The translations under genes and the position numbers were made by a program. The notes under the pieces are model-generated. The model worked only from the letters and a program-made list of their open reading frames with translations. It was not told the DNA's origin and did no database searches. A DNA stretch of 64,000 bases from Halosegnis marinus (lineage in GTDB: Archaea > Halobacteriota > Halobacteria > Halobacteriales > Haloarculaceae): positions 1,364,001 through 1,428,000 of the forward strand of contig NZ_CP119802.1 of assembly GCF_029338355.1 (NCBI RefSeq), in the 5' to 3' direction. This document shows positions 43,456-48,613 of the stretch, one piece after another; the first letter of the stretch is position 1; every line of letters begins with the position of its first letter.

Positions 43456-43524
43456 ATGACGAACACGAACTGTATCGGTCTGAATCTGACCGTTCGGGTA
43501 GTCAACGGGGGAATCGTATCGTGA
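43456..43524 (+). CDS. Upstream ORF (22 residues) coupled to amtB
   Basis: ATG at 43456 opens MTNTNCIGLNLTVRVVNGGI-VS and ends with TGA at 43522-43524, sharing one base with the amtB ATG (TGATG). A TATA-like AATTATATAC (43417-43425) would start transcription about 5-10 bases before this ATG, so it would be the first ORF on an almost leaderless mRNA. Probably a leader peptide for translational coupling or attenuation. The region 43320-43455 is markedly AT-rich and holds several TATA-like elements. Confidence 0.45.
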   Translation: MTNTNCIGLNLTVRVVNGGIVS

Positions 43525-44921
43525 TGTACGAAGTGCTGGCGCAGGCGGACGTGGGGACGTTGGTCGACGCCGTCAACACGACGTGGGCGCTGACGGTCGC
43601 GTTCCTCATCTTCTTCATGCAGCCGGGGTTCGCCCTGCTCGAAGCCGGGCAGGTCCGCGCGAAGAACGTGGGGAACGTCCTGATGAAGAACATGACCGAC
43701 TGGACGCTCGGCGTGCTGGCGTACTTCCTCGTCGGCTACGGGGTCGCCGGCATCGTCGGCCCGCTGACCAGCGGGCGCGCGATTCAGGACCCGTTCGCCT
43801 ACATGGCCAACCCCGAGGGGTGGGTGACGTGGCTCGTGGGCGCGGTGTTCGCGATGACGGCGGCGACCATCGTCTCGGGGGCGGTCGCCGGTCGCATGAA
43901 CTTCACCGCGTACGTCTTCGTGGCGGCCGTGATGACCGCGATCATCTACCCCGTCTCGGAGGGTATCACCTGGTGGGGCGGTCTGCTGGCGATAAACGAG
44001 GGCGCGCCCAACGGGTTCGTCGCGGACGCCATCGGCGTCGGCTACCTCGACTTCGCGGGGGCGACGGTCGTCCACATGCTCGGCGGCCTCGCGGGGCTCG
44101 TGGGCGCGTACATGGTCGGGCCGCGTGAGGGACGCTACGACGAGAACGGCAACAGCCAGGCCATCCCCGGCCACTCGATGCTGCTCGCGGTGCTGGGGAC
44201 GCTCATCCTCGCGTTCGGCTGGTTCGGCTTCAACGTCGGTACCTCCTCCATCATGGGCGGCGACGGGGCCGTCCTGAGCGCCCAGCTGGGCCGCGTCGCG
44301 CTCAACACCACGCTCGGCATGGGCGCCGGCGGGGTCGCGGCGATGATCGTCTCCGCCGCGTGGCAGGGTAAGCCCGACCCGCTGTGGACCGCGAACGGCC
44401 TGCTGGCCGGCCTCGTGGCCGTCACGGGCGCGGTGCCGCACGTCTCGTGGGTCGGCGGCATCGTCCTCGGCGCGCTCGCCGGGGCGCTCGTCCTGCCGAC
44501 GTTCCGCTGGGTCGTCGACTCGCTGAAGATCGACGACGTCTGCGGCGTCTTCGTCGTCCACGGGAGCGCGGGTGCCATCGGGACCATCCTGATCCCGGTG
44601 TTCTCGACCTCCGGCTTCTCCGCGACCCAGCTGGCGATGCAGGTCGTCGGCGTCGCGGTCATCGGCCTGTGGGCGGTCGTCGCCACGGCCGTCACCTTCG
44701 CCATCGCCGACGCGCTGTTCGGCCTGCGCGTCAGCGAGCAGGAGGAGGAGGAGGGGCTCGACCTCTCCGAACACGGCGTCTCGGCGTACCCCGAGTTCGT
44801 CGGCGAGAGCGGCGGTTCGAACGCGGGCGCGGTCACCACCGACGGCGGCCGCGTGGAGACGGACGGCGGCGTTCCGGTCGCGGACGACACCGCCGCGGCC
44901 AACGGGGGTGACGCCGAATGA
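43524..44921 (+). CDS. amtB: Ammonium transporter AmtB
   Basis: 465 residues, about eleven helices, trimeric NH4+/NH3 channel. Family segments: [20 protein letters not shown] near 30-50, [31 protein letters not shown] (conserved D and H of the gate), [10 protein letters not shown], and [18 protein letters not shown] with the second pore His. The cytoplasmic tail (from about 405) is acidic and ends ANGGDAE. ATG 43524 (GTG three bases earlier also possible). The stop overlaps the PII start by 4 bases, the common amtB-glnK operon with reversed order typical of archaea. Confidence 0.96.
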
Positions 44922-45277
44922 GCGCGAACGACAGCGAGATCAAGATGGTGATGGCGTACATCCGGCCGGACAAGCTCTCGGCCGTGAAGAAGGGGCTGGC
45001 CGAGGCCGGCGCGCCGTCGCTGACGGTGACGAACGTGTCGGGCCGCGGCTCGCAGCCGGCGAAGAAGGGGCAGTGGCGCGGCGAGGAGTACTCCGTGGAC
45101 CTCCACCAGAAGGTGAAGGTGGAGTGCGTCGTCGCCGACATCCCCGCCGAGGACGTGGCAGAGGCCATCTGCGAGGCCGCGAAGACCGACGAGAAGGGCG
45201 ACGGGAAGGTGTTCGTCCTCCCCGTCGACGAGGCCTACCAGATCCGGACGGGGAAGGTCGGCCCCGAGGCAGTCTGA
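44918..45277 (+). CDS. glnB: PII nitrogen regulatory protein (GlnB/GlnK)
   Basis: 119 residues. Trimeric PII protein that binds ATP/ADP and 2-oxoglutarate and blocks AmtB when nitrogen is plentiful. T-loop: [20 protein letters not shown] with the RGEEY tyrosine equivalent to Tyr51; B-loop [11 protein letters not shown]-loop IRTGKVG. The ATGA overlap with amtB shows co-translation. Its sequence is about 85-90% identical by eye to the PII part of the fused transporter downstream, so the two come from a duplication. Confidence 0.96.
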
Positions 45278-45279
45278 CC

Positions 45280-45681
45280 GTGGTCGGGCCGTCGAGAAGT
45301 CGCTCGACGCCCGACGACGCTCCCGTCGGGCGCGCGGCGCTCGACGACGACTCGCTCGAACGCCGGGAGGCGGCCGGCGACGTGCTCGGCTACGCGCCGC
45401 TCGTCGACCACGACGCGCTCGACGCCCGCACCGTGCTGGTCCGCCTCCGGGTCGCGCCCGACGACGTGCACGCCGTCGCGGCCGACCTCGCGGCGGCGGG
45501 CGCGACCTCCGTCTTCGAACTGACGGGCGGGGCGAACCTGCTCGCGGTGTGCCGGTTCCCGGACGACGCCGGCCGCGAGCGGTTCCTCGCGGGGCTGGCG
45601 ACCGACGACCGGGTGCGCGACGCGAGCGCGACCGTCGCGCTGCGCACCGTCGTCGAGGGGGACGCGCGGGGCCTGCTGTAG
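45280..45681 (+). CDS. Lrp/AsnC-type RAM-domain protein with incomplete HTH
   Basis: 133 residues from GTG 45280, just two bases after the PII stop. Residues about 48-133 form a RAM ligand-binding domain: RTVLVRLRVAPDDVHAVAAD, ATSVFELTGGANLLAVCRF, RDASATVALRTVV. Before it lies only the end of an AsnC HTH (ALDDDSLERREAAGDVLGYA), while the first two helices are missing. Thus it is a RAM-only effector sensor, or a regulator that lost DNA binding. Amino-acid sensing tied to the ammonium genes is likely. No frameshift is visible that would restore an HTH. Confidence 0.7.
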   Translation: MVGPSRSRSTPDDAPVGRAALDDDSLERREAAGDVLGYAPLVDHDALDARTVLVRLRVAPDDVHAVAADLAAAGATSVFELTGGANLLAVCRFPDDAGRERFLAGLATDDRVRDASATVALRTVVEGDARGLL

Positions 45682-45909
45682 GCCGCGCGCGAGCCGTTAC
45701 CACCCCGCTCGGCAACGCTTGCGCTGGACGCTCGTCCGACTTTCCACCCCGCGAGCGTCGCGTTTTCCGACGAAGAACGACCTTATACACGTAGTATTCT
45801 ACCGTATTTCGGACGTTCGTCGGTTCCTCGCGCCTCTATTTCGTCGTTTTCAAGCGAACGCTTATATAGAACACATCCATCACCGCCGCTCGTACTTCGG
45901 AGTCAAACC
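45682..45909 (+). promoter_or_regulatory. Upstream region of the second ammonium transporter
   Basis: 228 bases with no gene. It is AT-richer than its surroundings and includes TATA-like elements CCTTATACAC (45781-45790) and CTTATATAGA (45861-45870), and the 12-mer CGGACGTTCGTC (45810-45821) shared with the region before the first amtB. The second TATA box would start an mRNA near 45890, just before the upstream ORF at 45910. Confidence 0.5.
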
Positions 45910-45963
45910 ATGGCGAAAACGAGCGAAAAACCGGACGAAACGGTAACGCGGGGGAAGAGATGA
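45910..45963 (+). CDS. Upstream ORF (17 residues) coupled to the amtB-glnB fusion
   Basis: ATG 45910 to TGA 45961-45963 encodes [17 protein letters not shown]. Its stop overlaps the transporter ATG by 4 bases (ATGA), and GGGGGAAG just before gives a purine-rich ribosome site. The peptide is charged and not like the first leader, but position and coupling are the same. Could be a leader for regulated re-initiation. Confidence 0.4.
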
Positions 45964-47648
45964 ACGCGGTCGCGCTCCAGCTCGACCCGACGGCGGTCGT
46001 GGACGCGGTGAACTGGGTGTGGGTGCTCGTCGTCACCTTCCTCATCTTCTTCATGCACGCCGGCTTCGCGATGCTGGAGGCCGGGCAGGTGCGCTCGAAG
46101 AACGTCGCGAACCAGCTGACGAAGAACATGCTGACGTGGAGCGTCGGCGTCATCGTGTTCTTCCTGCTGGGCGCGACGGTGTCCTCGGTCGCGGCCGGCC
46201 TGACCGGCGGGCCCGATTACACCCTCTTCGCCGTCTTCGACGCGTCGAACGCGAGCGTCGCGGCCGACGGCGGCTGGGTGGACTGGCTGTTCGGCGCGGT
46301 GTTCGCGATGACGGCGGCGACCATCGTCTCGGGGGCGGTCGCCGGCCGCATGAAACTGCGCGCGTACGTCACCTACACCGTCGCCCTCGCGGGCGTCATC
46401 TACCCCGTCGTCGTCGGGCTGACGTGGGGCGAGGGGTTCCTCGAGGTGCTCGGCTTCACCGACTTCGCGGGCGGGATGATCGTCCACGGGATGGGCGGCA
46501 TCGCGGGACTCACGGCCGCGTACATCGTCGGGCCGCGCATCGACCGCTACACCGACGACGGCGGCGTGAACGTCATCCCCGGCCACTCCGTCACCTTCGC
46601 CGTGCTGGGGACGCTCGTCCTCGCGTTCGGCTGGTACGGCTTCAACGTCGGGACGGCCGCCGCGCCGCTCGCGGCCGGCGGCGGCGAACTCGACTCCTTC
46701 GGCTACGTCGGCCGCGTCGCGCTCACCACGACGCTCGGGATGGCCGCGGGTGCGCTCGGCGCGAGCGCCGTCGCGATGTACAAGACCGGGAAGGTGGACA
46801 CGCTGTACGTCGCCAACGGGATGCTCGCCGGCCTCGTCGGCATCACCTCGAACACCGACCTCATCACGTGGCCGGCCGCGCTGCTCATCGGCGGGCTAGC
46901 CGGGGCACAGCTCCCCGTCGTCTTCGAGTTCGTCGAGAAGCGCCTGAAGATAGACGACGTGTGCGCGGTGTTCCCCGTCCACGGGAGCGCGGGCGTGCTC
47001 GGCGCGCTGCTCGTCGCCGTCCCGTTCCTCACGGTGCCGGACGCGGGCGTCGACCCCGTCGCGCAGGTCGTCGGCGTCGCGGTCATCGCCGGCTGGACCG
47101 TCCTCGCGACGGGCGCCGTCTTCGGCGCGCTGAAGGCCGCCGGCCAGATCCGCGTCTCCCGCGAACACGAACTGGAGGGGCTGGACGTCTCCGAACACGG
47201 CGTCGACACCTACCCCGAGTTCGGCCGCCCGGACACGGTCGCGGACGGCGGCTTCGTCGAGGACGGCGGCGTCTACCGTCCCGACGGCGGTCTGCCGAAC
47301 GACGGGGGCATCAAGCTCGTCATGGCGTTCATCCGCCCGGACCGCCTCTCCGCGGTGAAGCAGGGGCTCGCGGAGGCCGGCGCACCCTCCATCACCGTCA
47401 CGAACGTCTCCGGACGGGGGTCCCAGCCGGCGAAGAAAGGCCAGTGGCGCGGCGAGGAGTACACCGTGGACCTCCACCAGAAGGTGAAGGTGGAGTGCGT
47501 CGTCGCCGACATTCCGGCCGACGACGTGGCCACGGCCATCGCGGACGCGGCCCGAACCGGCGAGAAGGGCGACGGGAAGGTGTTCGTCCTCCCCGTCGAG
47601 GGAGCCCACCAGATACGGACGGGCAAGACCGGCCGCGACGCGGTCTGA
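45960..47648 (+). CDS. Ammonium transporter fused to a C-terminal PII domain
   Basis: 562 residues in one frame. Residues 1 to about 410 are an AmtB channel ([79 protein letters not shown] with both pore-region His). A short Gly/Asp-rich tail follows. Residues about 449-562 are a whole PII protein: [21 protein letters not shown]-loop [21 protein letters not shown]-loop [11 protein letters not shown]-loop IRTGKTG. In the neighbouring pair the same two proteins are separate. Since both are trimers, a 3:3 complex with tethered PII is sterically reasonable. ATG 45960. Confidence 0.93.
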
Positions 47649-48283: not shown

Positions 48284-48291
48284 CGTCGTCT

Positions 48292-48613
48292 CCGGCTACT
48301 GTTCCGGTCCGGCTACTGTTCCGGTCCGGCTACTGTTCCGGTCCGGCTACTGTTCCGGTCCGGCTACTGTTCCGGTCCGGCTACTGTTCCGGTCCGGCTA
48401 CTGTTCCGGTCCGGCTACTGTTCCGGTCCGGCTACTGTTCCGGTCCGGCTACTGTTCCGGTCCGGCTACTGTTCCGGTCCGGCTACTGTTCCGGTCCGGC
48501 TACTGTTCCGGTCCGGCTACTGTTCCGGTCCGGCTACTGTTCCGGTCCGGCTACTGTTCCGGTCCGGCTACTGTTCCGGTCCGGCTACTGTTCCGGTCCG
48601 GCTACTGTTCCGG
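48292..48613. repeat. 17-bp tandem repeat array, 19 copies
   Basis: The unit CCGGCTACTGTTCCGGT repeats head to tail 18 times without any mismatch; a 19th copy lacks only the last T. Each unit has CCGG at both ends (CCGG...CCGG spaced by 8), so unit borders read TTCCGGTCCGG. It is too regular and has no spacers, so it is not CRISPR. The frame is open on the plus strand only because the 17-mer has no stop in any frame; the resulting 17-residue peptide repeat is not protein-like. No variation means recent expansion or active homogenisation. Confidence 0.95.

Follow-up and report, generated by a model that had tools for sequence, protein, structure and literature searches.

A haloarchaeal Amt-PII fusion predicted to form a tethered ammonium channel gate

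We propose that one gene of Halosegnis marinus, present in a stretch of 64,000 nucleotides (the window), encodes a tethered Amt-GlnK gate: a conducting ammonium channel with its own PII on a flexible tether. Judging from the sequence and from analogy to known complexes, we assign this reading a probability of roughly 70%; that the channel conducts, that PII docks on it under the control of ligands, and that the tether alters function are all inferred. The fusion itself is common in Halobacteria and no one-off. A search with the fused protein in 391 haloarchaeal genomes, each at least 90% complete, recovered unbroken full-length fused orthologues in at least 136 of them.

One frame with two domains

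The gene lies at 45960-47648 on the forward strand, as do all genes and domains located below, and encodes a chain of 562 amino acids. Its frame begins with ATG at 45960, ends with TGA at 47648 and contains no internal stop. Pfam assigns residues 20-418 to Ammonium_transp (PF00909; 4.8e-95; profile positions 1-399 of 399) and residues 452-556 to P-II (PF00543; 2.3e-23; profile positions 2-102 of 102). No third Pfam family beyond Amt and PII was found in the fused chain, and a kinase or other enzymatic output domain is absent. Thus, frame and Pfam matches confirm the sequence-only reading in so far as it described a single frame leading from an AmtB channel through a Gly/Asp-rich tail into a complete PII. 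A TATA-like box, GCTTATATAG, read from the sequence at 45860-45869 on the same strand, about 90 bases 5' of the fused ATG, suggests a putative promoter of its own. Further along the window, a tandem array of the 17-base unit TCCGGCTACTGTTCCGG, with 19 perfect copies, occupies 48291-48613, 3' of a phosphoribosyltransferase gene.

The Amt channel domain (residues 20-418, 46017-47213), a member of clade 2 of the haloarchaeal Amts, is delimited by PF00909 and supported by the residue table, the Amt tree and AF2/Foldseek. Residue equivalents are numbered after E. coli AmtB and GlnK, and counts refer to distinct sequences, among which related species are not independent. All 111 fused Amts share the equivalents of AmtB D160, H168, H318, F107 and W148, and that of F215 is found in 110 of them, with one gap; the twin His and the Phe gate are kept. 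A lost channel function is unsupported, since the pore and gate residues are invariant in the fused set. The Amt C-terminal region carries a motif that adjoins the linker (residues 407-421, 47178-47222); across the 59 fused proteins compared there, E404, G407-D409, E412-G414 and T417-E420 are invariant.

The PII (GlnK-type) domain (residues 451-562, 47310-47645) is supported by PF00543, its PDB match and a constant tail length. All 111 fused PIIs retain the equivalents of GlnK Q39, R47, K58, T83, G87, D88, G89, K90 and R103, with K58 sitting just after the T-loop, and the Y51 equivalent is Tyr in 107 and Phe in four. The T-loop region itself comprises residues 485-507 (47412-47480), according to the comparison of the 111 fused proteins. 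The earlier statement that the T-, B- and C-loops are intact holds for the tested residues, the B-loop TGxxGDGK being present, with one exception: the R101 equivalent is Gln in all fused and in most free haloarchaeal PIIs, and ligand binding may differ in detail. The PII tail ends seven residues past R-T-G in 104 of the 107 fused PIIs and in 96 of the 97 free ones, and the order Amt then PII leaves this C-terminus free. Such constancy matters because in Methanococcales GlnK a free carboxy-terminus has been reported to contribute to the binding of 2-oxoglutarate and to the shift of the T-loop (PMC8395244).

The AF2 model of the single chain (mean pLDDT 74.6, pTM 0.70) contains both folds. Its confidence is low in the T-loop and the linker, with pLDDT below 50 for residues 408-445, and as a model of one chain it is silent on docking. 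The Foldseek matches of the Amt part are 6eu6, 2b2f, 2ns1 and 2nuu, and the best PDB match of the fused PII is GlnK2 of Haloferax mediterranei (4ozj/4ozn). That the top model matches include 6eu6, 'Sensor Amt Protein', and 8qj3/8qj4, 'Receptor Sd-Amt1', would suit a different function, in which the Amt is a receptor that senses external ammonium or transport and switches a tethered PII acting on other proteins, for instance on membrane-recruited glutamine synthetase. Ks-Amt5 and Sd-Amt1 are precedents for an Amt fused to a signalling output domain. According to a passage of PMC3831643 that cites this work, free Hfx. mediterranei GlnKs activate glutamine synthetase in vitro, and GlnK1 of M. mazei binds the same enzyme (PMC10651883); because free archaeal GlnKs bind or activate it, a sole PII might keep this role. 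We nevertheless consider a receptor improbable, since the fused proteins show no variation in the twin His and the Phe gate, as is the case for conducting channels, the pore-blocking T-loop arginine is invariant too, and the analyses that were run revealed no link from the fused PII to another partner.

The linker (residues 422-450, 47223-47309) is rich in Gly, Asp and Glu, is predicted to be disordered and keeps an R-x-D-G motif. Measured from the Amt C-terminal YP to the PII RP, 108 distinct haloarchaeal linkers are 32-73 residues long, with a median of 40. Differences within the linker at codon positions 1, 2 and 3 amount to 0.179, 0.124 and 0.339 (198 pairs, which are not independent), a pattern that fits a translated stretch, as expected. 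The Halosegnis marinus linker contains no ATG, GTG or TTG in frame, the first such codon being the ATG of V-M-A in PII strand 1, and 71 of the 108 distinct linkers have no start codon upstream of that strand. While a typical PII is a separate diffusible chain, this one is encoded covalently after the Amt, behind a linker without a start codon.

These counts bear on whether the fusion exists at the level of annotation only, two proteins being made through proteolysis of the linker or an internal translation start. The linkers are long and predicted to be disordered, which would make them accessible to proteases. Moreover, the orthologous clade-2 pair of Haloferax and Halogeometricum is one frame in which a lone stop codon, a further codon and an ATG lie between the two parts, and the H. 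mediterranei amtB2-glnK2 locus, one gene in one record and two genes according to the authors, was described in 2024 as 'misannotated as a single transcript' (PMC11218638). The scarcity of upstream start codons argues against two proteins, as does the fact that a start inside strand 1 would leave the fold incomplete; free PIIs, too, have Met at these positions. On the other hand, no protein-level evidence of the intact chain came to light. An internal start that gives free PII is thus unsupported, and we regard the two-protein explanation as very improbable.

Distribution of the fusion and number of PIIs

Given unbroken orthologues in at least 136 of the 391 haloarchaeal genomes, the fusion is not a sequencing error, and the loss of a stop/start pair through such an error is ruled out. 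The search in other haloarchaea, which had been suggested along with the sequence-only reading, thus finds the fused architecture to be common. By hand count, the listed unbroken fusions fall under about 36 genus and eight family codes; carriers include Halosegnis, Halobaculum, Halocatena, Natrinema, Haladaptatus, Halorussus, Halorubrum and Natronomonas. Fused orthologues are also present in G083, G084 and G085, three further genomes from the genus of Halosegnis marinus. An even sample of the phylum contains the unbroken frame in at least 47 of about 91 haloarchaeal genomes (hand count). Outside Halobacteria, one or more stops separate the domains in every full-length Amt plus PII match listed from the same phylum.

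The occurrence of unbroken fusions only in Halobacteria, among the phylum matches listed, would be expected if the tether were an adaptation to salt that raises the local PII concentration in a molar-salt cytoplasm. A passage of PMC4009401 that cites Durand and Merrick states that E. coli AmtB-GlnK dissociates to A3 + G3 in high salt, for which reason tethering may help in a salt-rich cytoplasm, and a simple chain model gives a millimolar local PII concentration from the tether, a value that is an assumption of the model. A tether is not required in Haloferax, however, which keeps the proteins separate and still shows binding (PMC3831643), and many other haloarchaea are unfused. Salt is a possible, if doubtful, reason for the fusion, and one compatible with a tethered gate.

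PII numbers were obtained by combining the fusion search with a PII search, the handles being copied by hand from tables. Among the 136 listed genomes with an unbroken fusion, exactly one PII was found in 113, two in 22 and three in one; draft genomes could miss a PII gene, though hardly in such number. A diffusible PII is, on these sequence counts, apparently absent from 113 of the 136 listed fusion genomes. The earlier claim that tethering 'frees nothing' is borne out as far as sequence can tell, given the start-free linker in Halosegnis marinus and the 113 of 136 listed genomes without another PII. At five loci (L153, L158, L217, L218 and L126) a further PII-containing frame lies close 3' of the fused gene.

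Studies treat PII as a mobile integrator that acts on many targets, and they often see its docking to Amt in part as a means of sequestering it. We see an even chance that in most fusion haloarchaea PII is no longer a diffusible messenger, gating having been separated from PII control of targets such as glutamine synthetase, or these targets coming to the membrane. A natural lineage whose sole PII is tethered offers a clean test of whether release is needed for signalling, and such a lineage also tests whether Amt gating works as an intramolecular switch. The split relatives, in Haloferax one stop codon apart, lead to a simple swap experiment.

The neighbouring pair and the Amt tree

The window also contains an unfused amt (43524-44921; PF00909), a clade 1 paralogue that is 49% identical to the fused Amt and falls into a separate clade, and a free glnK (44918-45277; PF00543) that is 83% identical to the fused PII. 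The two genes overlap via ATGA, which confirms the separate genes and the 4-base overlap that had been noted before. The whole Halosegnis marinus genome has two PII domains and two Amts only, and the free GlnK of the neighbouring operon can still serve other targets in this species. That the pair encodes the same two proteins as the fused gene, as had been claimed, is wrong for the transporter, the Amts being old paralogues at 49% identity, in contrast to 83% for the PIIs. A recent local duplication of the pair is ruled out by this low identity of the Amts and by their different clades.

In a codon test within the window, the share of identical codons between the fused and the neighbouring copies was 0.72 for PII and 0.73 for Amt; as the two values are about equal, recent PII gene conversion is unsupported overall. 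Around the T-loop and the next strand, the codons of fused and free PII are near-identical (47430-47530 versus 45050-45150), possibly reflecting a local conversion. Directly 3' of glnK, 45286-45681 (forward strand) encodes a protein with an Lrp/AsnC ligand-binding domain (PF01037), in which an HTH is not recognisable. Relatives, most of which have an HTH part as judged by eye, occupy the position directly 3' of amt-glnK at 44 of the 106 loci with a free PII and at 17 of the 131 with a fused one (duplicates counted).

The Amt tree contains two well-separated haloarchaeal clades. Clade 1 is almost entirely unfused, and the frame of its one fused exception (L202, in genome G147) apparently arose by an independent fusion. 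Clade 2 is mostly fused, with unfused members nested in it, and its deepest branches are fused, backbone support being low. Strongly supported branches force at least eight changes of fusion state, and the simplest account has 13; the backbone is weakly supported, and we do not claim a single fusion followed only by splits. Because the fusion state changed at least eight times, tethering is not indispensable. At one locus (L211) that shares its genus code with most Haloferax-like loci, the spacing puts amt and glnK in different frames.

So many changes would be expected of a near-neutral fusion, in which adjacent, co-translated genes with matching stoichiometry frequently lose or gain the stop codon between them with little effect; pairs separated by a single stop exist, and a genome may carry highly similar PIIs in its two operons. 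The lack of a free PII in 113 of the 136 listed fusion genomes speaks against this, as it should matter if free PII has other jobs, and the fused deepest branches of clade 2, for which backbone support is low, point to a long-lasting state. We therefore consider a near-neutral origin unlikely. The PII tree, which with 112 columns is only suggestive, is discordant in that the PIIs of both operons group together in several genomes; gene conversion may account for this, or else strong constraint. It has been suggested that the haloarchaeal amt-glnK pairs, two in number, stem from a rather recent duplication in Haloferax (PMC3831643). This does not fit the Amt tree, in which both Amt clades are old, and the analysis of the fused gene corrects that view.

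A tethered gate and known Amt-PII systems

The homology basis for the proposed mechanism is the AmtB-GlnK complex (PMC4009401, PMC10710835). In membranes of ammonium-shocked Haloferax mediterranei, tagged AmtB1 binds GlnK (PMC3831643), a co-immunoprecipitation that concerns the clade-1 AmtB1, not AmtB2, and Methanococcales GlnK leaves membranes only with Mg-ATP and 2-oxoglutarate (PMC8395244). By analogy, the fused protein would be a conducting Amt ammonium channel that carries a GlnK-type PII gate on a flexible cytoplasmic tether, and in an assembly of three such chains the three PII domains would lie beneath the Amt trimer, at the 3:3 ratio of the AmtB-GlnK complex. At low 2-oxoglutarate, in the nitrogen-rich cell, the PII trimer would dock and its T-loop arginines would block the pores. 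Mg-ATP and 2-oxoglutarate in the PII clefts would move the T-loops, and the PII trimer would undock yet stay attached, so that the channel would open and re-close by a local, intramolecular step. As proposed in the sequence-only reading, the fused and the unfused system may respond at different nitrogen levels. The millimolar local concentration, as modelled, would bias the tethered gate towards closure, except where ligands bind strongly enough to counteract this. In sole-PII cells, Amt gating would probably be separated from diffusible PII signalling. The confidences that we attach to the other readings are not exclusive shares; the near-neutral and the salt explanations address why the fusion exists, and both can hold together with the tethered gate.

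With the AmtB-GlnK gate, as represented by E. coli (2NS1/2NUU), Methanococcales GlnK and Haloferax mediterranei AmtB1-GlnK, the fused protein shares the two domains, an expected 3:3 ratio and, except for R101, the pore, T-loop and ATP/2-oxoglutarate residues. It differs in that PII sits covalently behind the channel, whereas in the known gate it is a free trimer that leaves the membrane. The Amts of the amtB2-glnK2 pairs of Haloferax and Halogeometricum belong to clade 2 and are orthologous to the fused Amt, and the N-terminus of their GlnK2 resembles the end of the fused linker, LPNDGGIK; these pairs are two genes with a stop codon and a short gap between them, whereas the fused gene is one frame. 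The 2013 study of H. mediterranei dealt with the pairs as separate genes and showed AmtB1-GlnK binding (PMC3831643). Hlac_2623 of Halorubrum lacusprofundi, an Amt found by proteomics to be more abundant in ammonium-free biofilms (PMC5118699), may be a fused protein, as other Halorubrum Amts examined are fused.

Marsh et al. (2013) list AmtB-GlnK among the complexes with STRING gene-fusion evidence and note that a fusion would not conserve the disassembly of this complex (PMC4009401). Their entry records fused genes in some genome, as found here, and stands in the text examined as a dataset entry without organism, distribution, residues or function. Searches of the open-licence literature yielded no functional study of a naturally fused Amt-PII. 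The fusion was thus already known as a STRING record, and the interesting new part is the distribution of sole PIIs. Finally, Ks-Amt5 (a histidine kinase fusion) and Sd-Amt1 resemble the fused protein in combining an Amt with an extra C-terminal cytoplasmic signalling domain. The extra domain of Sd-Amt1 is a signalling domain, and in both proteins it serves as an output module, whereas in the haloarchaeal fusion the channel carries its own known regulator in that place.
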